Shown one piece after another: positions 21,513-44,279 of a DNA stretch of 50,806 nucleotides. Positions within the stretch are counted from its first letter, which is position 1. Each line of letters starts with the position of its first letter. Both the position numbers and the translations under genes were made by a program. The stretch is from Pelagibacteraceae bacterium AG-325-E13 (GTDB taxonomy: Bacteria; Pseudomonadota; Alphaproteobacteria; Pelagibacterales; Pelagibacteraceae), in NCBI GenBank assembly GCA_003282965.1, contig QBYF01000007.1, positions 1 through 50,806 on the forward strand. Reading direction: 5' to 3'. The notes below the pieces were generated by a model, which worked only from the letters and a program-made list of their open reading frames with translations, had not been told where the DNA came from and ran no database searches.

Positions 21513-22505
21513 TTATAAATACTTGTTTAATAATTTTTCAAATAATTTGATATGATCTGAGTTGTCGTTCAAGCAAGGAATTAAATCAAAATTAACTCCG
21601 CCATTTTCTAAAAAACTCTCTTTACCTTGAATATTTATCTCCTCTAAAGTTTCAACACAATCAGATGCAAAACCAGGACATATTACCAATAAATTTTTTA
21701 CGCCCTTTTTAGGCAAGCTTTCTAATGTTTTGTCTGTATAAGGAGTTAACCATTCTTGAGGCCCAAATCTTGATTGGAAAGTTGTTTGAATCTCTACTTT
21801 ATTAAACTTTTCCTTCATCAGTCTTGTAGTTTTGTGGCAATAGCAATGGTATGGATCTCCTTTGTCAAAATAAGACTTAGGTATTCCGTGATAAGAGGAA
21901 ATTATTAAATCAGGTTTCCAGTTTATTTCTTTAATCTTTTTTCCAATACTGTTTACTAAGGCTTCAATATAAAAAGGCTCACTTTCATAGTGGGGAATAA
22001 TTTGGATGCTGGGCTGCCATCTCATTTTCATTAGTGATCTATAAACTTCATCGCAAACTGTTGCGGTTGTTGCAGCTGCATATTGGGGGTATAAGGGAAG
22101 AATAACTATATTTTCGCATCCTTCTTCTTTAAGTTTATTCAATTTAGATTTTATACTTGGGTTCCCATATCTCATAGCGAAGTCTACAATTATTTTTTTA
22201 TTTCCAATCTTTTCGTTTAACTTGGTGGCTTGATTTCTAGTAAAATATAATAAAGGTGACTCGTTGCTTTCTTTACGCCAAATTTTTTTATAGGCATGAG
22301 CTGTTTTGGATGGCCTAAAAGTCAAAATAAATAGATTTAGAATTATTTGCCAAATTAATGGATTTACCTCTATTACCCTTCTGTCTGATAGAAATTCTTT
22401 TAAGTATTTTCTAATATCCCACCAACTTGTAGAGTCAGGGGTTCCTAAGTTGATTAACAAAACACCGGTTTTGCCAAATTTTACTACAGGATGATCTTTG
22501 TCCAT
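21513..22505 (-). CDS. hemH: Ferrochelatase
   Basis: Inserts ferrous iron into protoporphyrin IX, the last step of heme synthesis, at the inner face of the membrane. The 330-residue protein shows GVLLINLGTPDS at the N-terminus, FLSDRRVIE, AMRYGNPSI, the LPLYPQYAAATTATV segment, the catalytic-histidine motif SSYHGIPKSYFDKGDPYHCYCHKT, FQSRFGPQEWLTPYT and CPGFASDCVETLEEI. Its start codon region overlaps the hemE stop (shared base at 22505), so hemE-hemH-hemJ form one tight operon. Confidence 0.98.
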   Translation of the reverse strand: MDKDHPVVKFGKTGVLLINLGTPDSTSWWDIRKYLKEFLSDRRVIEVNPLIWQIILNLFILTFRPSKTAHAYKKIWRKESNESPLLYFTRNQATKLNEKIGNKKIIVDFAMRYGNPSIKSKLNKLKEEGCENIVILPLYPQYAAATTATVCDEVYRSLMKMRWQPSIQIIPHYESEPFYIEALVNSIGKKIKEINWKPDLIISSYHGIPKSYFDKGDPYHCYCHKTTRLMKEKFNKVEIQTTFQSRFGPQEWLTPYTDKTLESLPKKGVKNLLVICPGFASDCVETLEEINIQGKESFLENGGVNFDLIPCLNDNSDHIKLFEKLLNKYL

Positions 22506-23512
22506 TAATAATTCCTATAAAATTCAATTAATTTTTTTACTCTATCAGGATCTGTTTCAGGAAGTAAGCCGTGACCAAGATTAAAAATATAAGGAATATC
22601 CTGAAATGTCTTAATATATTTCGTCGCTCCCTTTAACATTAGTTCCTCGGACTCTAGTAAAAGTTTTGGATCAAGCCCACCTTGTAATACAACATTTTTC
22701 AAATTATTTTTTGCCCACATAGGATCTATTGTATAATCTAAATTTATACCTTCTGGCTTAACCATTTCATTAAATTCTTTGTATTTTTCTTTAATGCCTC
22801 TAGGGAAACATATATTTGGAATTTTTTTTTCTTTACAAAACTCAACTATTTTTGCGTTGGGTATATAACAATAATCTTTAATATCATTTTCAGGAATTAA
22901 TCCTGACCAAGAGTCAAATATTTGAACAACATCTGCCCCAGCATCAATTTGGTTAGAAATATGAAGAGATAGAAATTTAATTAATTTACTTAAAATCTGA
23001 TTTTTATTGATGATGTTTTTATTTAACTTGTCAAAATCTATTTCAGTTTTATTCTTTTTAATATTAAGCATATAAACTAATAATGTCCAAGGGGCTCCTA
23101 TAAAGCCTATTAAAGATTTTTTTTTATCTAGATTAGATCTTGTTATTTCAATTGCTTTATAAACTGGATTTAATTTTTCTGAGAATTCGTTTTCATTTAT
23201 ATCCAAAAATTTTTCTAAAATAAAATCGTCTAATTCTGGACCCTCATCTTTAATAAATTTTACTTCTTGGCCTAATGCATATGGTGCTATTAGAATATCT
23301 GAAAAAATTATAGCGGAATCCAAATCAAACTTTTTTATTGGTTGAAGTGTTATTTCAGAACTTAATTCGCTATTTAAACAAAGTTTGATAAAATCTTGAT
23401 TTTGTGACCTTATTTTCCTAAACTCAGGTAAATATCTACCTGCTTGTCTCATAAACCATACAGATCTACAAGTTCTATCTTTTTGTACTAATATTCTTTT
23501 AAGAGTGCTCAT
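22505..23512 (-). CDS. hemE: Uroporphyrinogen decarboxylase
   Basis: Decarboxylates the four acetate side chains of uroporphyrinogen III to give coproporphyrinogen III. Typical motifs are VWFMRQAGRYLPEFR (residues 18-32, with substrate-binding R22 and R26), FSDILIAPYALG, GFIGAPWTLLVYM, QIFDSWSGLI, and a C-terminal GGLDPKLLL and FNLGHGLLPETDPD. At 335 residues it is normal. It is the first gene of hemE-hemH-hemJ and faces ppsR across the 274-bp region proposed as oriC; hemE next to the origin is the Caulobacter arrangement. Confidence 0.98.
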   Translation of the reverse strand: MSTLKRILVQKDRTCRSVWFMRQAGRYLPEFRKIRSQNQDFIKLCLNSELSSEITLQPIKKFDLDSAIIFSDILIAPYALGQEVKFIKDEGPELDDFILEKFLDINENEFSEKLNPVYKAIEITRSNLDKKKSLIGFIGAPWTLLVYMLNIKKNKTEIDFDKLNKNIINKNQILSKLIKFLSLHISNQIDAGADVVQIFDSWSGLIPENDIKDYCYIPNAKIVEFCKEKKIPNICFPRGIKEKYKEFNEMVKPEGINLDYTIDPMWAKNNLKNVVLQGGLDPKLLLESEELMLKGATKYIKTFQDIPYIFNLGHGLLPETDPDRVKKLIEFYRNY

Positions 23513-23786
23513 AATATATAGTTTAGTTTAATAAATTTAAAATATGTAGTAGGTCCTGTTAATTATCAATATAACTATTTATACATATTTCATACAATCT
23601 GACTTGAATAAATAATGTCATTTATAGCTGTAATCCTATGATTTTAGTTAAATTATAAACAATTATAAAATTATAATATCAACACCTAACAAAATGTTTA
23701 AATAATGTTAATTATTGTTAATTACTTTTTATAAATTATAAAAATATTGAAAAAACCGAGCTTATTAAATAATTGTTAACAGAGAT
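23513..23786. other. Candidate chromosomal origin region (hemE-ppsR intergenic)
   Basis: This is the longest gene-free stretch in the window and is extremely AT-rich. Both flanking operons run away from it. The gene order around it (rho, hem genes, hemE, gap, ppsR, maf, aroE, coaE, dnaQ, secB) is that of the Caulobacter crescentus oriC. Degenerate DnaA-box-like 9-mers: TTATCAATA (23563-23571), TTATACATA (23579-23587), TTATAAACA (23653-23661). TGTTAATTA occurs three times (23557, 23706, 23716). No perfect DnaA box is present, and such matches are frequent by chance in AT-rich DNA; the call rests mainly on synteny. Confidence 0.5.
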
Positions 23787-24608
23787 ATGAACCAAAAATA
23801 CAATGTATATCTTGTGTCCGACTCTACTGGAGAAACTTTAGACAGGATTTTCTTATCACTAAAATCACAATTTTCTAATTTTGAATATGAGAAAAAAGAA
23901 TTTGCTTTTGTAAGAACTGAGCAACAAATAGACAAGATTATCAAAATTTGCTCTGATTCTAAAAATTCTATAATTTTATATACTATTGTTGAAACAAAGC
24001 TGGCTAAATATATTTCCAATATTTGTGAAGAAAATGGCATTCCCTGTTTTGGGATATTAGGAAATTTAATATTAAATTTTTCTAAACTATTAAACCAAAA
24101 AGCAATTCATAAACCAAGCGCTCAGCACGTCTTAGATGACGAATATTTTAAAAGAATTGAGGCCATTCAATTTACAATGTATCATGATGATGGGAAAAAA
24201 ATTGGAGATATTGATAAAGCAGATATTATTCTCCTGGGAGTTAGCAGGACAAATAAAACACCTACCTCCATATATTTAGCTAACAGAGGTTATAAAACTA
24301 TGAATATTCCTCTAGTTCTAGATCAAAAAGTTCCCGAAGATTTAAAATCATATAAAAATAAAAAATGCGTTATTGGTTTAGTGGCTGACCCAGACAGATT
24401 GGCTGATATTAGAAGAAATAGAGTTGCAATAATGCAGGATCATAATATTAAAGAATATACTGATCTTAATTCTATAAAAGAAGAGTTAGATAAATCTAAA
24501 AAACTTTTTAATAAGTATAATTGGCCAATTATTGACGTAACCAGAAGATCTGTAGAAGAAACAGCTGCATCTATTTTAAAGATTTTTGAAATACAAAAAA
24601 ATAAATGA
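23787..24608 (+). CDS. ppsR: Pyruvate, phosphate/water dikinase regulatory protein (kinase-pyrophosphorylase)
   Basis: DUF299-family protein that both phosphorylates (with ADP) and dephosphorylates (with phosphate) its dikinase target, switching PEP synthesis on or off. The 273-residue sequence has the N-terminal YLVSDSTGETL, HKPSAQHVLDDEYFKRIEAIQFTMYHDDG, the P-loop-like GVSRTNKTPTSIYLANRGYKT, and the C-terminal WPIIDVTRRSVEETAASI. Homologs occupy the same place next to the origin in Caulobacter. It starts the plus-strand run ppsR-maf-aroE-coaE-dnaQ, each pair overlapping by 1-8 bases. Confidence 0.95.
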   Translation: MNQKYNVYLVSDSTGETLDRIFLSLKSQFSNFEYEKKEFAFVRTEQQIDKIIKICSDSKNSIILYTIVETKLAKYISNICEENGIPCFGILGNLILNFSKLLNQKAIHKPSAQHVLDDEYFKRIEAIQFTMYHDDGKKIGDIDKADIILLGVSRTNKTPTSIYLANRGYKTMNIPLVLDQKVPEDLKSYKNKKCVIGLVADPDRLADIRRNRVAIMQDHNIKEYTDLNSIKEELDKSKKLFNKYNWPIIDVTRRSVEETAASILKIFEIQKNK

Positions 24609-34968: not shown

Positions 34969-35516
34969 TTAATTTCAGGAATTTTAAAAGTATTTTTTTC
35001 AAAAACATCATTTTTAGCAATAATGTTTAAAGAGAAATTTATATTATTGTTATATTGGTCGATAATTTGCCAACCTTTTAAATCTAATGTTTTTCTATCA
35101 AAAAAAACCGTTATCTCATTATCTCCTACATATACGAGCTTAATTATCTGATCATATAATTCTAATTCTCCAGATTGAATAATTTCTAAAAGTTTGTCTT
35201 TATATAAAATATTTAGGAAAGGAGATTTTGAGATAGGATAATAATAAGTTTTGTTATATCTTTTTTGTGTTATCGCTAATCTTTTTTTATTTATTACTAA
35301 TTGCTTTTTTTTATCATCAAAGTAATCACATTTTAATTTTCCAGGAAATTCTAAAAGACAACTTCCTTTTTCAGTTTTGTTATTTATGATTTGATTAAAG
35401 GTAAATTCCATAGAATTTAAACCATTTAATTGATAAATTATTTGGTCTTTTTCATTAGCATAAAGATTTGCTGTTAATATAATAAAAATTAAGAATATTT
35501 TTTTAAAGAACTTCAC
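34965..35516 (-). CDS. lolA: Outer-membrane lipoprotein carrier protein LolA-like
   Basis: Periplasmic chaperone that shuttles lipoproteins from LolCDE to the outer membrane. The GTG at 35516 gives MKFFKKIFLIFIILTANLYA, a clean signal peptide, followed by a LolA-type beta fold: NGLNSMEFTFNQ, KGSCLLEFPGKLKCDYFDDKKKQLVINKKRLAI, ISKSPFLNIL and LKGWQIIDQYNN. An ATG four codons earlier (35528) is an alternative; both overlap the end of ftsK. The ftsK-lolA order is conserved in alphaproteobacteria. LolA sequences vary, so identification leans partly on context. Confidence 0.85.
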   Translation of the reverse strand: MKFFKKIFLIFIILTANLYANEKDQIIYQLNGLNSMEFTFNQIINNKTEKGSCLLEFPGKLKCDYFDDKKKQLVINKKRLAITQKRYNKTYYYPISKSPFLNILYKDKLLEIIQSGELELYDQIIKLVYVGDNEITVFFDRKTLDLKGWQIIDQYNNNINFSLNIIAKNDVFEKNTFKIPEIN

Positions 35517-37599
35517 GTTTGCCAACATGATTTGCTTTGCTAACAATACCTTTTTCTTCCATCATATCAATAATTCTAGCTGCTCTATTGTAACCTATTT
35601 GTAATTTTCTTTGTAAAAAGCTAGTAGATGCTTTTCCTTCTGACTTAATTATTTCTAAAGCCTGATTATAAAGTTCATCTTCATCACCATCTTCAACAGA
35701 AGATAATGTATCTTCTTTATTTTCTTGGATTGTAATTTCTTCAATATAGTCTGGTTCACCTTGAGTTCTTAACGTATTTGCAATTTTTTCAATTTCTTGT
35801 TCTGAAACATACGGGCCATGTATCCTAATAATACGATTTGCTGAAGACATGAAAAGCATATCTCCCTTCCCAAGTAATTGTTCTGCGCCCTGCTCTCCTA
35901 AGATAGTTCTACTATCAATTTTAGAACTTACTTGAAAAGATATACGAGTTGGAAAGTTAGCTTTAATTGTACCTGTAATAACATCTACACTTGGTCTTTG
36001 AGTCGCCATGATAATGTGAATACCTGCAGCTCTAGCCATTTGAGATAGTTTTTGAATATAGTTTTCAATTTCTTTGCCAGAAACTAACATTAAATCTGAC
36101 ATCTCATCGACTACGACTACTATATAAGGCATTTTAAGTTTATGCTTAGAGTTGTAGCCATCTATATTTCTTACCCCAACTTTACTCATCAGCTTATAAC
36201 GACTATTCATTTCTTTGACCGTCCATGCTAATGCTGAAGTTGCCTTTTTTGCATCTGTAATCACTGGTGTAAGTAAATGAGGTATACCCTCGTAAGTAGA
36301 TAGCTCTAACATTTTTGGATCAATTAAAATAAATTTACATAAATCTGGATTTAATTTGTAAAGCAATGACACAATAATTGTATTAATACATACAGATTTT
36401 CCTGATCCAGTAGTTCCCGCAATAAGCAAGTGAGGCATACTAGTTAGATCACCAACTATTGGTGTGCCAGAAATACCCTTTCCAAGAGCTATAGGTAATC
36501 TTATTTCTTTTTTTTGAAATCTTTCATTAGATATTATTTCTCTTAAAGAAACGCTATTTCTTACTTCATTAGGGATTTCAATACCGACTGTATTTTTTCC
36601 TGGAATTACTGAAACTCTAGTTGATGTTGAACTTGTATTTCGAGCTAAATCTTCGGATAGATTTATAATTTTCGAAACTTTTACGCCTGGAGCAGGTTCA
36701 AATTCGTATAAACTTACCACCGGTCCATTATTTATATTTTTGATTTTTCCGTCAATTCCAAAGTCTAGCAAAACTTTTTCCATAAATTCAGCATCTGGCC
36801 TGCTTTTGTTTTCATCCAAGAGACTTGACTCTGAGGAACTTTTTTCTAGAAATTCTAATGAAGGTAATTTGTATTTGATTTTTGTTTGAACTGTTTGTTT
36901 ATCTTCTTTTGTTACATTATCAAAAACAAAAGATTGTTGAGGTTTCTCGGTTAAAGAAACTTCTTCATCAGCTTTGTCATTAGAAAAGTCGTTTACTGGA
37001 GAAGTTTCCTTCTTATTTTTAAATAATGGTAAAAAAGTTTTAAATATTTGTACTATTATTGTTTTAACATTTAAATCAGACGATAGAATAAAAAAAATTA
37101 ATGTTAAAAAGAATAATGCAAAGAGTGAATATTGACTATTGATCCAAGGGGCTATATTGCTGATAAAATTATAACTTACCTCTCCTACAAATCCTGAATT
37201 ACCATTATCTATAAGCCAAAAAGAATTATTAAATGTTAGATAAATAAAAATTGACCCTAAAGTAAGATAAGTTACAACCAAAAATAATTTTAATATTATT
37301 CTGTTAATTTCTTTTTTTATTAATAAACTTATTCCCCAAAATAATAAATTTGCTAAAAGTAAAAAAGAAGCTACGCCAAAACTTTGAAGAAGAAAGTCTG
37401 CAATACTACTTCCATATATTCCAAAGAAATTTTTTATCTCTATATTACTATCGCCATAAATAAATGATGGATCTTCTGGAGCATACGTTGCGAAAGATAT
37501 TGCCAGTCCGATACCTGTTAAAATCAGGATTAGTCCCAATAATTCAAAGGTTCGTTTTTTCAAAAAATTTGTTAAACTGTTTAAAAAGTTTGTATTCAT
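35503..37599 (-). CDS. ftsK: DNA translocase FtsK
   Basis: Septum-anchored motor that moves chromosome termini and activates XerCD at dif. The 698-residue protein is short but complete: four N-terminal helices (about 20-37, 65-93, 104-123, 155-175), a linker of roughly 60 residues, the alpha/beta motor with PGVKVSKIINLSEDLAR, Walker A GTTGSGKS (395-402), LIDPKMLELSTYEGIPHLL, VVVDEMSDLM and MATQRPSVDVITGTIKANFP, and a C-terminal winged-helix gamma domain (STSFLQRKLQIGYNRAARIIDMME) for KOPS recognition. It is divergent from the UbiH-type gene. Confidence 0.97.
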   Translation of the reverse strand: MNTNFLNSLTNFLKKRTFELLGLILILTGIGLAISFATYAPEDPSFIYGDSNIEIKNFFGIYGSSIADFLLQSFGVASFLLLANLLFWGISLLIKKEINRIILKLFLVVTYLTLGSIFIYLTFNNSFWLIDNGNSGFVGEVSYNFISNIAPWINSQYSLFALFFLTLIFFILSSDLNVKTIIVQIFKTFLPLFKNKKETSPVNDFSNDKADEEVSLTEKPQQSFVFDNVTKEDKQTVQTKIKYKLPSLEFLEKSSSESSLLDENKSRPDAEFMEKVLLDFGIDGKIKNINNGPVVSLYEFEPAPGVKVSKIINLSEDLARNTSSTSTRVSVIPGKNTVGIEIPNEVRNSVSLREIISNERFQKKEIRLPIALGKGISGTPIVGDLTSMPHLLIAGTTGSGKSVCINTIIVSLLYKLNPDLCKFILIDPKMLELSTYEGIPHLLTPVITDAKKATSALAWTVKEMNSRYKLMSKVGVRNIDGYNSKHKLKMPYIVVVVDEMSDLMLVSGKEIENYIQKLSQMARAAGIHIIMATQRPSVDVITGTIKANFPTRISFQVSSKIDSRTILGEQGAEQLLGKGDMLFMSSANRIIRIHGPYVSEQEIEKIANTLRTQGEPDYIEEITIQENKEDTLSSVEDGDEDELYNQALEIIKSEGKASTSFLQRKLQIGYNRAARIIDMMEEKGIVSKANHVGKREVL

Positions 37600-37655
37600 T
37601 TCGAATCGTTTTACGTACTTTTTACCATTTTTATGAAAGTGTTAAAAATTTTTAT

Positions 37656-38753
37656 ATGAATAAACAGAAAATATGCATTGTTGGAGACGGTCTATCTGGC
37701 TTAATGACTGCTTTGGCATTAAATAAATTAGAAGGCTTGGAAGTTCACTTAATATCTAAAAAAAATAAGTATTTTAAAGATAAAAGAACGACAGCTATAT
37801 CTGCCTCTAACTATGATTTTTTTAACAAAGTTATAGGCAAACTCGATAAAAAGTTATTTTGGCCTTCTAAAAAGATTGACCTTTTCTATGAGACAAAAGA
37901 CCAGAACACAAATTTCTTAAATTTTAGTGAAGACAACAAAAATCTTATGTACGTTTTTGAGAACGACAAGATAAAAGAAATTCTAATTAAAGAAATAAAA
38001 AAAAAAAAGATCAAAATTCTTCAAAAAAATATTAATGAACTAAAAGACTTAGATGGATACGATATGAAGGTACTCTGCTTAGGTAGATCTTCAAAAATTT
38101 ATCAAAGTATAGTTGATAAAAGGTCGTTAAATAAAGATTATAAAGAAATCGCTATCACGGGTTATGTTAAACATAATTTAAGGAATTTGAATACTGCTCA
38201 ATATTTTTTTAAAGATGGTCCGTTAGCAATACTTCCCTTTTCAAAAAATAATTTTTCTTTTGTCTGGAGTGTAGATAAAGACTTTGCCCAAAAAGATATT
38301 AACTTAGTCGTTAAATCTAAAATTTGTGAAGTTTTAAAAACAAAAAAAATACAGATTTCAAATCAACAATCATATCCTTTGACGCTTAATCTAAAACGAA
38401 CATATTATAAAAACGATATTCTTATTTTAGGTGAAGGACTTCACACAGTTCATCCCGTAGCAGGTCAAGGCTTTAATCTTGTATTAAGAGATATAAATAA
38501 GTTACAAGAGCTTTTAAAATACTATACGGGATTAGGCATGTCTTTAAGTAGCACCCCAGTGCTTGAAGATTTTACAAATAATAGAAAATCTGAAAATATT
38601 ATTACTGGAATAGGAATTGATCTAACTCATAATTTCTTTAAACAAAATAATTTATTAGATCCCATTAAAGAAACAATTTTGAAGAATATTTCAAAAAATA
38701 ATACTCTTAAAAAAATAAGCAAATTTATTTCTAATCAAGGTTTAGCAATTTAA
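37656..38753 (+). CDS. UbiH-family FAD-dependent hydroxylase (ubiquinone biosynthesis type)
   Basis: A 365-residue flavoprotein monooxygenase likely hydroxylating the ubiquinone ring. FAD site: CIVGDGLSGL near residues 7-16; C-terminal ILILGEGLHTVHPVAGQGFNLVLRDI, the second FAD motif typical of UbiH/UbiF/VisC. The frame extends upstream to 37464, but this is antisense to ftsK; ATG 37656 gives the canonical start. UbiH, UbiF and UbiI cannot be told apart by eye. It lies 4 bp before mnmE. Confidence 0.88.
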   Translation: MNKQKICIVGDGLSGLMTALALNKLEGLEVHLISKKNKYFKDKRTTAISASNYDFFNKVIGKLDKKLFWPSKKIDLFYETKDQNTNFLNFSEDNKNLMYVFENDKIKEILIKEIKKKKIKILQKNINELKDLDGYDMKVLCLGRSSKIYQSIVDKRSLNKDYKEIAITGYVKHNLRNLNTAQYFFKDGPLAILPFSKNNFSFVWSVDKDFAQKDINLVVKSKICEVLKTKKIQISNQQSYPLTLNLKRTYYKNDILILGEGLHTVHPVAGQGFNLVLRDINKLQELLKYYTGLGMSLSSTPVLEDFTNNRKSENIITGIGIDLTHNFFKQNNLLDPIKETILKNISKNNTLKKISKFISNQGLAI

Positions 38754-41997: not shown

Positions 41998-42614
41998 TGA
42001 GCGTTAAAAATGTTATTAAATTGCTTAAAAGTGAGCTAGAATTCTCAGAATCGTCAATTGATAAACTTAAAACATTTCACGATTGCCTTTTAGACTACAA
42101 TAAAAAGTATAACTTGATATCTAAAAGCACAGAAAAAAACGTTTGGTTTAGACATATTCTTGACTCAGCTCAAATACTCAAATTTATAGATAGAAAAAAA
42201 GATAATAATATCGCTGATTTTGGCTCTGGAGCAGGATTTCCTGGATTAATATTAGCAATACAGTCTAGAAATAATATATTTCACGTGAAATTGTATGAAA
42301 AATCAGCTTTAAAAAGAGATTTTCTAAATGAAATAAAAGAAAAATTAGATCTTCAAAATGTAGAGGTAAAAGGAGATATTTATGAGAGTGAAATCACTTC
42401 AAACACAATAACATGCAGAGCTTTTAAAAAATTGAAGGAAATTATAAATATTTCACGTGAAATGATAAAAAAACCTCATAAATTAATCATTCTGAAAGGA
42501 AAAAATGCACAGTCTGAAATTAATAATGTATCATTAGGGACCAATTATAGTTATAAGTTTGAAAACAGTATTACAGACCAGGATTCAAAAATAATACTGA
42601 TCGAAGCAAAATGA
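41997..42614 (+). CDS. rsmG: 16S rRNA (guanine527-N7)-methyltransferase
   Basis: Methylates G527 of 16S rRNA with SAM. The 205-residue protein has LLDYNKKYNLIS, RHILDSAQIL, the SAM-binding ADFGSGAGFPGL (73-84) and TCRAFKKLKEI. Codons in its second half contain two parS-like palindromes (42278-42291 and 42450-42463), so the gene also serves as carrier of the centromere site next to parA. It ends one base before the parA ATG. Confidence 0.97.
   Translation: MSVKNVIKLLKSELEFSESSIDKLKTFHDCLLDYNKKYNLISKSTEKNVWFRHILDSAQILKFIDRKKDNNIADFGSGAGFPGLILAIQSRNNIFHVKLYEKSALKRDFLNEIKEKLDLQNVEVKGDIYESEITSNTITCRAFKKLKEIINISREMIKKPHKLIILKGKNAQSEINNVSLGTNYSYKFENSITDQDSKIILIEAK
42278..42291. other. parS-like centromere site 1
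   Basis: ATTTCACGTGAAAT is a perfect 14-bp palindrome containing the TTTCACGTGAAA core of the bacterial parS consensus (TGTTTCACGTGAAACA). It lies inside rsmG, about 340 bp before parA. It is read as codons for F-H-V-K. Confidence 0.92.
42450..42463. other. parS-like centromere site 2
   Basis: A second, identical ATTTCACGTGAAAT palindrome in rsmG, 172 bp from the first and 153 bp before parA. Here it is read in a different codon phase (I-S-R-E), so identity comes from the DNA rather than from a protein repeat. Confidence 0.92.
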
Positions 42615-42615
42615 A

Positions 42616-43419
42616 ATGGACAACAAATCTACTATAGCAGTCATAAATCAAAAAGGTGGAGTAGGCAAAACAACTACAGTTATCAATTTAGCTACAGCAC
42701 TGTCCATTTTGGGCCAAAACAATCTCATTATAGATTTAGATCCTCAAGGTAACGCAACTACAGGCTTAGGAAGATCTAACAATGATGAAGAAAACAATAT
42801 TTATAATTTACTTATAAAAAAAATAGAATTGAAAGACGCTATTCAAAAAACGGATATTAAAAATTTAGATATCATAGGATCAAATGTTAACTTGTCAGGA
42901 TTGGAAGTGGAAACAGCAAATGATTCGGACAGAGCATTTGTTTTAAAAAAAATTTTAGATAATGAGAAAAATAATTCGCTGTTAAAATATGATAATATAT
43001 TCATAGACTGTCCACCTTCACTTAGTTTACTTACAATAATGGCTTTAGTAGCATCTAATGAAATATTAGTTCCTCTTCAAACAGAATTTTTTGCTTTGGA
43101 GGGTATTACCCAGTTAGTCAAAACTATAGATAGAATTAAAGTTAACTTGAATCCAAAATTAAAAGTACGAGGAATTTTGCTCACGATGTTTGATAAAAGA
43201 AATAAGCTATCCTCACAAGTTGACAAAGAAGCAAGAAATTATTTCAAAGAGAAAGTTTATGAAACGGTAATACCTAGGAATGTTAGATTATCTGAAGCTC
43301 CATCACATGGTATGCCATGTGTAGTTTATGACAAAACATGTTTAGGAAGTAAATCTTACTTAAAACTAGCAGATGAATTTGTTGTTAAAAAGAGCCATAA
43401 TGTGGAAAGCGCAGCATGA
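42616..43419 (+). CDS. parA: Chromosome partitioning ATPase ParA
   Basis: Walker-type ATPase that segregates the origin region with ParB-parS. The 267-residue protein has the deviant Walker A KGGVGKTT (13-20), DLDPQGNATTGLG (Walker A'), FIDCPPSLSLLTIMAL, LLTMFDKRNKLSSQV, and the C-terminal VIPRNVRLSEAPSHGMPCVVYD. The short N-terminus without a DNA-binding domain marks the chromosomal (Soj-like) type. The first codon is one base after the rsmG stop; it overlaps parB by 4 bp. Confidence 0.97.
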   Translation: MDNKSTIAVINQKGGVGKTTTVINLATALSILGQNNLIIDLDPQGNATTGLGRSNNDEENNIYNLLIKKIELKDAIQKTDIKNLDIIGSNVNLSGLEVETANDSDRAFVLKKILDNEKNNSLLKYDNIFIDCPPSLSLLTIMALVASNEILVPLQTEFFALEGITQLVKTIDRIKVNLNPKLKVRGILLTMFDKRNKLSSQVDKEARNYFKEKVYETVIPRNVRLSEAPSHGMPCVVYDKTCLGSKSYLKLADEFVVKKSHNVESAA

Positions 43420-44279
43420 GCACTTCAAAGAAAAAGGGCTTAGGAAGAGGTTTGTCGGCTCTTTTTGGAGATCAAAAATCCGAGCAAAAAGAACAAAAAA
43501 TAAGTCAAAAATCACTCAGAGCTGGAATTAGCGATTTAAGGCCTAACAAATATCAGCCTAGAATACACTTTAATGAGGAAAAATTGTCAGAATTAGCTAG
43601 TTCCATTAAGAAAAACGGCATTATTCAGCCAATAGCTGTAAGAAAAGATGATGGAGATCCTGGGAGATACGAAATAGTTGCTGGCGAGAGAAGATGGTTA
43701 GCAGCTCAAAAAGCAGGTTTACATGAAGTACCAATAGTCGTTTTAGATCTTGATGACAGTGAAGCATTAGAGGTTGCTATTGTTGAAAATATTCAACGAG
43801 ATGATCTTAATGTTGTAGAGGAAGCAAAAGGTTATAAAAGATTATCAGATGAATTTGGATATGATCACGAAAAAATTGCAAAGTTTATGTCTAAAAGCAG
43901 GAGTCATATAAGCAATACTTTACGCCTACTATCATTGCCAGCAGATGTAATTGGCTTAATCCAAGAAGGAAATTTAACTGCAGGACAAGCTAGACCTTTA
44001 ATAGGATTATCCAACGCAACAAGTATCGCAGAAGAAATTGTTGCAAAAAATTTAAGTGCTAGAAGTGTTGAAATTTTAGTAAGAAGCAAGAAGGGTCCTC
44101 AAAAATCTGGTCAGATTAAAATTGATGCAAACATATTAAATGAAGAAAGAAGAATTCAGGATAATCTAGGCTTAAATATTAAAATTGAAAATAAAAAGAA
44201 TAATTCAGGTAAAATTACTATTTTATATAAAAATCTAGAACAATTTGAATTTGTTTCAAATTTACTTAAGCGGAATTAG
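43416..44279 (+). CDS. parB: Chromosome partitioning protein ParB
   Basis: CTP-dependent DNA clamp that loads at parS. The 287-residue protein has the N-terminal ParA-stimulating GLGRGLSALFGD (8-19), LRPNKYQPRIHF, the CTP-binding GERRWLAA (90-97), AIVENIQRDDLNVVEEAKGY, and a helix-turn-helix with MSKSRSHISNTLRLLSLP. Its likely targets, two parS palindromes, are about 1 kb upstream within rsmG. Its 3' end overlaps holA by 14 bp. Confidence 0.97.
   Translation: MSTSKKKGLGRGLSALFGDQKSEQKEQKISQKSLRAGISDLRPNKYQPRIHFNEEKLSELASSIKKNGIIQPIAVRKDDGDPGRYEIVAGERRWLAAQKAGLHEVPIVVLDLDDSEALEVAIVENIQRDDLNVVEEAKGYKRLSDEFGYDHEKIAKFMSKSRSHISNTLRLLSLPADVIGLIQEGNLTAGQARPLIGLSNATSIAEEIVAKNLSARSVEILVRSKKGPQKSGQIKIDANILNEERRIQDNLGLNIKIENKKNNSGKITILYKNLEQFEFVSNLLKRN

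Follow-up and report, generated by a model that had tools for sequence, protein, structure and literature searches.

The hemE-ppsR intergenic gap as the probable chromosomal origin of a SAR11 bacterium, with degenerate DnaA boxes

The window analysed here is one complete contig, of 50,806 nucleotides, of Pelagibacteraceae bacterium AG-325-E13, whose genome of 956 kb lies in 28 contigs, with dnaA on a different contig. The region of interest is the gap between two divergent genes, hemE and ppsR:

23513..23786, no strand: putative oriC intergenic region, 274 bp, 17.2% GC
22505..23512, minus strand: hemE, uroporphyrinogen decarboxylase, left flank (TIGR01464, E=4.2e-94)
23787..24608, plus strand: ppsR (COG1806/DUF299), right flank (PF03618, E=7.3e-91)

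The edges of the gap are exact: the start codon of hemE, on the minus strand, ends at 23512 and ppsR begins on the plus strand at 23787. The initial annotation had placed a probable origin here on the strength of a Caulobacter-like gene order, and profile matches verified that order on both sides (rho-hemJ-hemH-hemE to the left, ppsR-maf-aroE-coaE-dnaQ-secB to the right), while the coordinates bear out that hemE and ppsR diverge from the gap. It had also called the gap the longest non-coding stretch, which holds on the list of open reading frames except for the longer contig end (1-654), and exceptionally AT-rich. The latter is right (17.2% GC against 30.1% for the contig, with 0.26% of the contig's 274-bp windows equally or more AT-rich) but not unique, because the most AT-rich 274-bp window, at about 26.1 kb, sits inside coaE. 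Rfam gave a single kind of match in the window, to a tRNA, and the IHF pattern WATCAN5WTR gave a single raw pattern match in the gap, at 23631-23643 on the minus strand.

Nine DnaA-box cores were located in the gap, listed here with the conservation of the C of ACA, or the G of TGT on the opposite strand, in 80 close relatives:

23557..23565, minus strand: box core 1, TGTTAATTA, G 100%
23577..23585, plus strand: box core 2, ATTTATACA, C 100%
23579-23587: TTATACATA, overlapping box core 2, 2 mismatches to TTATCCACA
23588..23596, plus strand: box core 3, TTTCATACA (consensus TTTTATACA), C 97%
23653..23661, plus strand: box core 4, TTATAAACA, C 94%
23676..23684, plus strand: box core 5, ATATCAACA (consensus TTATTAACA), C 100%
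23695..23703, minus strand: box core 6, TGTTTAAAT, G 99%
23706..23714, minus strand: box core 7, TGTTAATTA, G 100%
23716..23724, minus strand: box core 8, TGTTAATTA, G 100%, 10 bp from box 7
23773..23781, plus strand: box core 9, TTGTTAACA (consensus TTATTAACA), C 100%, directly before the ppsR start

In the window's single sequence these boxes are only marginally above chance. Four 9-mers lie at two mismatches to TTATCCACA (23563, 23579, 23653 and 23676; P=0.041 by shuffling) and none in the gap lies below two; the strict form TTATNCACA is absent from the gap and TTATNNACA occurs there once (P=0.32). Three degenerate DnaA-like boxes had been noted before, together with three copies of a repeat. 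Degenerate boxes are indeed present, as about nine conserved cores rather than three, and the gap does contain three copies of the repeat TGTTAATTA, at 23557, 23706 and 23716, a count reached in 0/1000 dinucleotide shuffles of the gap. It occurs once more elsewhere in the window, and four copies window-wide are unremarkable (20/100 shuffles). Read on the opposite strand the repeat is TAATTAACA, a DnaA box with three mismatches, and its copies are most likely reverse-oriented boxes, not a separate motif.

Support for an origin comes chiefly from relatives. The window's ppsR matches 65 loci, nearly all Pelagibacteraceae, at 67-88% identity, with further matches to L100 (a truncated copy) and to one SAR116 locus (40% identity), which places the organism in SAR11. 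For comparison of the gap itself, identical gaps were collapsed (131 to 106), L099 (SAR116) was dropped from the SAR11 set, and two loci without ppsR (L128 and L129) were left out of the counts. The resulting 105 distinct copies, including the window's, comprise 80 close relatives (loci up to L103, ppsR 66-100% identical) and 25 copies from other genera (22 from genus g8, one from g5 and two from g7). Gap length is 261-289 bp throughout the 105 copies while hemE diverges, and 272.2 ± 3.2 bp in 65/65 named loci (L034-L098). Gene order is similarly stable: the complete series rho-hemJ-hemH-hemE-ppsR-maf-aroE-coaE-dnaQ-secB is found in 50/65 named loci, 47 with one extra gene on the left and three without, the others having no hemJ match (6/65) or showing fewer genes (9/65), several of these on shorter loci.

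Fixed gap length alone is weak evidence, because the rho-hemJ gap hardly varies in length either (66.3 ± 2.0 bp over 55 loci). One could therefore suppose that in these compact genomes the hemE-ppsR gap is kept for its divergent promoters and translation starts plus a regulator, perhaps DnaA itself, and that replication starts elsewhere nearby. The divergence of the two genes would suit this account, but one locus from the order's other family argues against it. There ppsR was not found in 24/24 genomes; in L128, the only locus of that family that was read, a 271-bp gap (1203-1473) nonetheless persists beside hemE, with a Maf-like frame, named by eye, in the place of ppsR and diverging from hemE across the gap. 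That gap holds five two-mismatch DnaA boxes against 1.26 expected from single-base shuffles. Together with the box cores, the module at one gap end and the strand-bias switch described below, it leaves the promoter account, in our judgement, very improbable.

By coordinates, hemE and ppsR are adjacent in 13/16 genomes searched; the three others are G062 and G063, where the genes lie apart, and G037, where no ppsR was found. In G062 and G063 (genus g6) the distance from ppsR to parB is still 20 kb and the sole hemE-like match (31-32% identity) is far off, which suggests that hemE was relocated or exchanged there. At L057 a hemE only 39% identical to the window's adjoins a ppsR that is 79% identical, possibly a replacement in place.

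Returning to the gap as an origin, we found that what is conserved within it is mainly the cores of DnaA boxes. In the 80 close relatives 11 G/C columns are conserved at 85% or above, and nine of these are the C of ACA or the G of TGT, in contexts that include TTATTAACA, TTATAAACA, TTTATACA and TGTTAATTA. The other two are the GG of a TAGG beside the leftmost core, next to the TAG repeats. The chance of nine in 11 is 5e-4 at the context rate of these gaps or 5e-6 at the shuffle rate, values that are only indicative as the sequences are related. TTATNNACA is over-represented about eight to nine times, at 2.38 per gap against 0.29 in shuffles for the 80 close relatives and 3.04 against 0.33 for the 25 other-genus copies. 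The looser pattern TTAT[ACT][AC]ACA is densest in the gap in G087 (four, against at most two elsewhere in the 800 of 1309 kb scanned) and in G091 (three, against one elsewhere in 180 kb); on a simple count of boxes per cluster, other places outrank the gap in G090 and G068, and it no more than shares first place in G064 and in the window.

These boxes may have a more conventional ancestry. The hemE-ppsR gap of SAR116 locus L099 (440 bp scanned) contains two exact copies of TTATCCACA and two one-mismatch boxes, and the SAR11 boxes are therefore probably eroded descendants of ordinary ones. The DnaA protein of the window's own genome and of close relatives carries the motif RDHTTV, and most g8 genomes listed carry RDHTTI; the solved Bacillus subtilis DnaA has the same motif letters. 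This motif is the part of DnaA that reads the DnaA box, and as it is kept in canonical form nothing suggests a changed reading of DNA.

A second element lies at the hemE end of the gap, next to box 1:

23547..23552, plus strand: TAGTAG, two units resembling DnaA-trios (3'-GAT-GAT-5'), separated from box 1 by 4 bp
23513..23546, no strand: hemE-proximal AT-rich stretch, a candidate duplex-unwinding element judged from sequence

In the basal unwinding architecture (BUS), as set out in the sections of PMC8287927 and PMC7561715 drawn on here, the unwinding region lies beyond the trios from the box, and the candidate stretch matches this in being separated from box 1 by the TAG repeats. The search rule given in the same section of PMC8287927 is a box with at most two mismatches, a spacer of at most 16 bp and at least three trios; the window falls below it, with three mismatches, a spacer of 4 and two trios. 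The case for the module comes from the other genera. In genus g8 the leftmost box reads TGTGAAT or TGTGGAT in 11/22 copies, one or two steps closer to the consensus box with orientation unchanged. Among the 25 other-genus copies the best array stands at spacer 4 in 16, and 22 have at least three units by a loose rule counted without a shuffle control. Under a test narrower than the published rule (box with at most two mismatches, spacer 3-5, GAT or TAT units), a module with at least three trios is present in 12/25 gaps against 0.05 in shuffles, and one with at least four trios in 11/25 against 0.00. That this module sits at the same gap end in other genera would be hard to expect of a mere promoter region.

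The 80 close relatives behave differently, with 0/80 (0.20 expected) at three or more trios and a box with at most two mismatches, and 11/80 (12.3 expected, chance level) at two or more trios and at most three mismatches. Selection of the left box took a non-homologous upstream match in L105 and L115, and by pattern gave no box in 20/105 copies, all of them close relatives. Judging by position and conservation, we read TAGTAG-GTCC-TGTTAATTA as a worn trio module in the window's lineage. The trio array of Clostridioides difficile, given as CCTACTACTATTACTACTA in the relevant part of PMC7561715, resembles the complement of the SAR11 repeats.

Replication from the gap would be expected to leave a change in strand composition, and we looked for a change point in the base counts of fourfold-degenerate sites, after correction for the coding strand, using five scan windows. 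In three informative relatives the change point fell close to hemE/ppsR in all five (0.1-0.5 kb in G087, 0.9-1.4 kb in G090 and 5.6-5.8 kb in G064), and 0/100 block permutations reached the observed maximum in any of them. These data also bear on the idea that the origin lies at dnaA, as dnaA-linked origins are common among bacteria, and that the hemE-ppsR gap is merely an AT-rich divergent promoter region. The record of G061 begins at dnaA, with a match from base 61, and in G091 (180 kb scanned) the best change point is 51 kb off on the dnaA side, although 6/100 permutations reach it and it is not significant. With dnaA 63-74 kb from hemE/ppsR in the three informative relatives, twice the log-likelihood gain prefers hemE/ppsR by 198 to 96 in G087, 67 to 37 in G090 and 87 to 39 in G064 (±200 kb). 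Moreover, TTATNNACA is absent from the 350 bp upstream of dnaA in 20/22 loci (one with only 9 bp) and single in 2/22. An origin at dnaA thus has very little probability here, and the switch at the gap likewise tells against replication starting elsewhere nearby.

Agreement with an origin at hemE-ppsR is weak in G068 (22.6 against 18.1), where narrower scans shift the change point to -122 or -67 kb. The window alone is too short and gave no significant switch (T/A 2.4 at 32 kb; G/C 3.2 at 24 kb). A two-breakpoint fit for G087 (800 kb, 10-kb grid) put breaks at 330 kb and at 1.12-1.15 Mb, the latter in the uncovered part, and the interpolated raw GC-skew maximum of that genome, at about 1.00 Mb, lies opposite the gap at 0.336 Mb. 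On the right-hand, leading side A exceeds T in all four of G087, G090, G064 and G068. The sign of the T/A shift is constant, and that of the strand-corrected G/C shift varies between lineages, being positive in G087 but negative in G090, a reversal of GC skew inside SAR11. Cumulative GC skew, proposed earlier as a check on the origin, turned out to be a poor one, as over the stretches covered its raw minimum misses the gap by 28-32 kb in G087, G068 and G064 and by about 250 kb in G090. Raw GC skew may therefore misplace a SAR11 origin by tens to hundreds of kilobases.

In Caulobacter the parABS locus lies near the origin. The initial annotation put the window's parABS about 19 kb away, and this agrees with the starts of parA and parB, which lie to the right of the gap at distances of 18.8 and 19.6 kb:

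42277..42292, plus strand: parS-like palindrome TATTTCACGTGAAATT, inside rsmG
42449..42464, plus strand: parS-like palindrome TATTTCACGTGAAATG, inside rsmG
42616..43419, plus strand: parA-like ATPase, ParA/MinD matches, none of those listed over its own cut-off
43416..44279, plus strand: parB, TIGR00180, E=2.1e-55, over cut-off

The two parS-like palindromes sit just upstream of parA, each with three mismatches to the parS consensus (two matches against 0.29 expected). Such palindromes also occur in the stretches of G090, G068 and G064, with a near-perfect TGTTTCACGTGAAACA in G068 and G064, and none was found in the G087 stretches searched. The placing of neighbours varies: parB and dnaA share the hemE side in G087, dnaA is on the ppsR side in G090, and in G064 parB is on the ppsR side and dnaA on the hemE side, which suggests inversions around the origin. 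Elsewhere in the window a UbiH-like frame (37464-38753) shares part of its length with the frame before it on the opposite strand (35503-37599), and the family matches of the UbiH-like frame start at about residue 65-70, so that its true start is probably further downstream.

Ideas concerning how such an origin might be controlled turn first on CtrA. It could be argued that the gap is an origin in which the TTAA-bearing TGTTAATTA repeats are sites for a CtrA-type repressor and not DnaA boxes. OmpR-type regulators are present in these genomes, and TTAA-N7-TTAA is more frequent in the gaps (0.67 per gap) than in single-base shuffles of them (0.25), with one site in the window's gap, at 23765-23779, overlapping box core 9. 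Set against this, the best match to Caulobacter CtrA reaches no more than 26-35% identity in 10/10 genomes, Pelagibacter has no ctrA ortholog according to the part of Brilli et al. 2010 (PMC2877005) consulted, and the tandem TGTTAATTA pair of the window has N6 spacing, which close relatives likewise show more often than any other (N6 at 0.99 per gap, N7 at 0.75). With no close CtrA and N6 prevailing, we rejected a CtrA reading of the repeats; a CtrA-type repressor acting on them is, on balance, improbable. The scarcity of CtrA features does not by itself exclude the gap from the hemE-type origins, because origins of that type with few or no CtrA sites are reported in the portion of PMC1914354 used here.

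Control through GANTC methylation fares no better within the gap. GcrA is present in 9/10 genomes and missing only from the incomplete G000, and a CcrM homolog in SAR11 is described in the cited part of PMC3973325. There is no GANTC in the window's gap and any at all in only 7/105 gaps, on which ground GANTC/CcrM control within the gap was rejected. With no close CtrA and scarce GANTC, control is likely to run via DnaA level and activity, and initiation is probably DnaA-driven without CtrA.

Taking these lines together, the hemE-ppsR gap is in our estimate the chromosomal origin (oriC) with a probability of about 0.93, a reading drawn from sequence comparison and supported because gap length, box-core conservation, the trio module and the strand-bias switch all recur in relatives. 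In the mechanism that we envisage, DnaA would load cooperatively on about nine weak boxes, arranged as a single box that points towards hemE, two pairs that point towards ppsR, a cluster of three pointing back towards hemE, and a last box where ppsR starts. Growing out from box 1, DnaA would cover the neighbouring TAG repeats and open the AT-rich DNA next to hemE, and helicase would be loaded there for two divergent forks, with timing set by DnaA level and activity without CtrA. A bolder proposal, which we put forward tentatively and with some doubt, is that the origin of the window's lineage has no high-affinity DnaA box at all, only some nine ACA-core sites in a fixed layout, a two-unit trio and no CtrA. 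If true, DnaA must accumulate and load cooperatively, and replication would be timed by a minimal clock that depends on almost nothing but the DnaA level.

SAR11 bacteria rank with the most abundant in the ocean, and both growth estimates from read depth and work on the SAR11 cell cycle need a dependable origin coordinate. We found no paper defining a SAR11 oriC by its title or abstract, though a DoriC prediction may well exist; a marine methylome study used a GC-skew script to assign ori and ter in a Pelagibacter MAG whose contigs had been reordered, as stated in the section of PMC9516812 cited here. The hemE-ppsR gap would provide a sequence-defined landmark usable even on fragmented genomes, and its worn boxes without CtrA would allow a test of the smallest number and strength of signals from which a chromosome can still be started.

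Among known systems the closest parallels are in the Alphaproteobacteria. The Caulobacter crescentus origin (Cori) was mapped experimentally and a counterpart proposed in Rickettsia prowazekii, both with hemE/COG1806 flanks according to the part of PMC1914354 drawn on, and the SAR11 gap shares with them the flanking genes, an AT-rich gap and DnaA-type sites. It differs in being shorter (274 bp against the >400 bp stated in that part of PMC1914354) and, in the window, in having only degenerate boxes, no close CtrA and no GANTC in the gap. In the same order as in the Bacillus subtilis BUS, so far as the cited section of PMC8287927 describes it, the window presents a reverse box, then TAG repeats at a spacing of 4 bp and beyond them AT-rich DNA; in contrast to that system it has two trio units and a box with three mismatches, below the published rule. 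SAR116 locus L099 has its gap between hemE and ppsR as well, with exact and one-mismatch boxes where the window's gap has none below two mismatches. On the reading favoured here, the gap is a new example of the alphaproteobacterial hemE-ppsR origins, one whose DnaA boxes are unusually degenerate.
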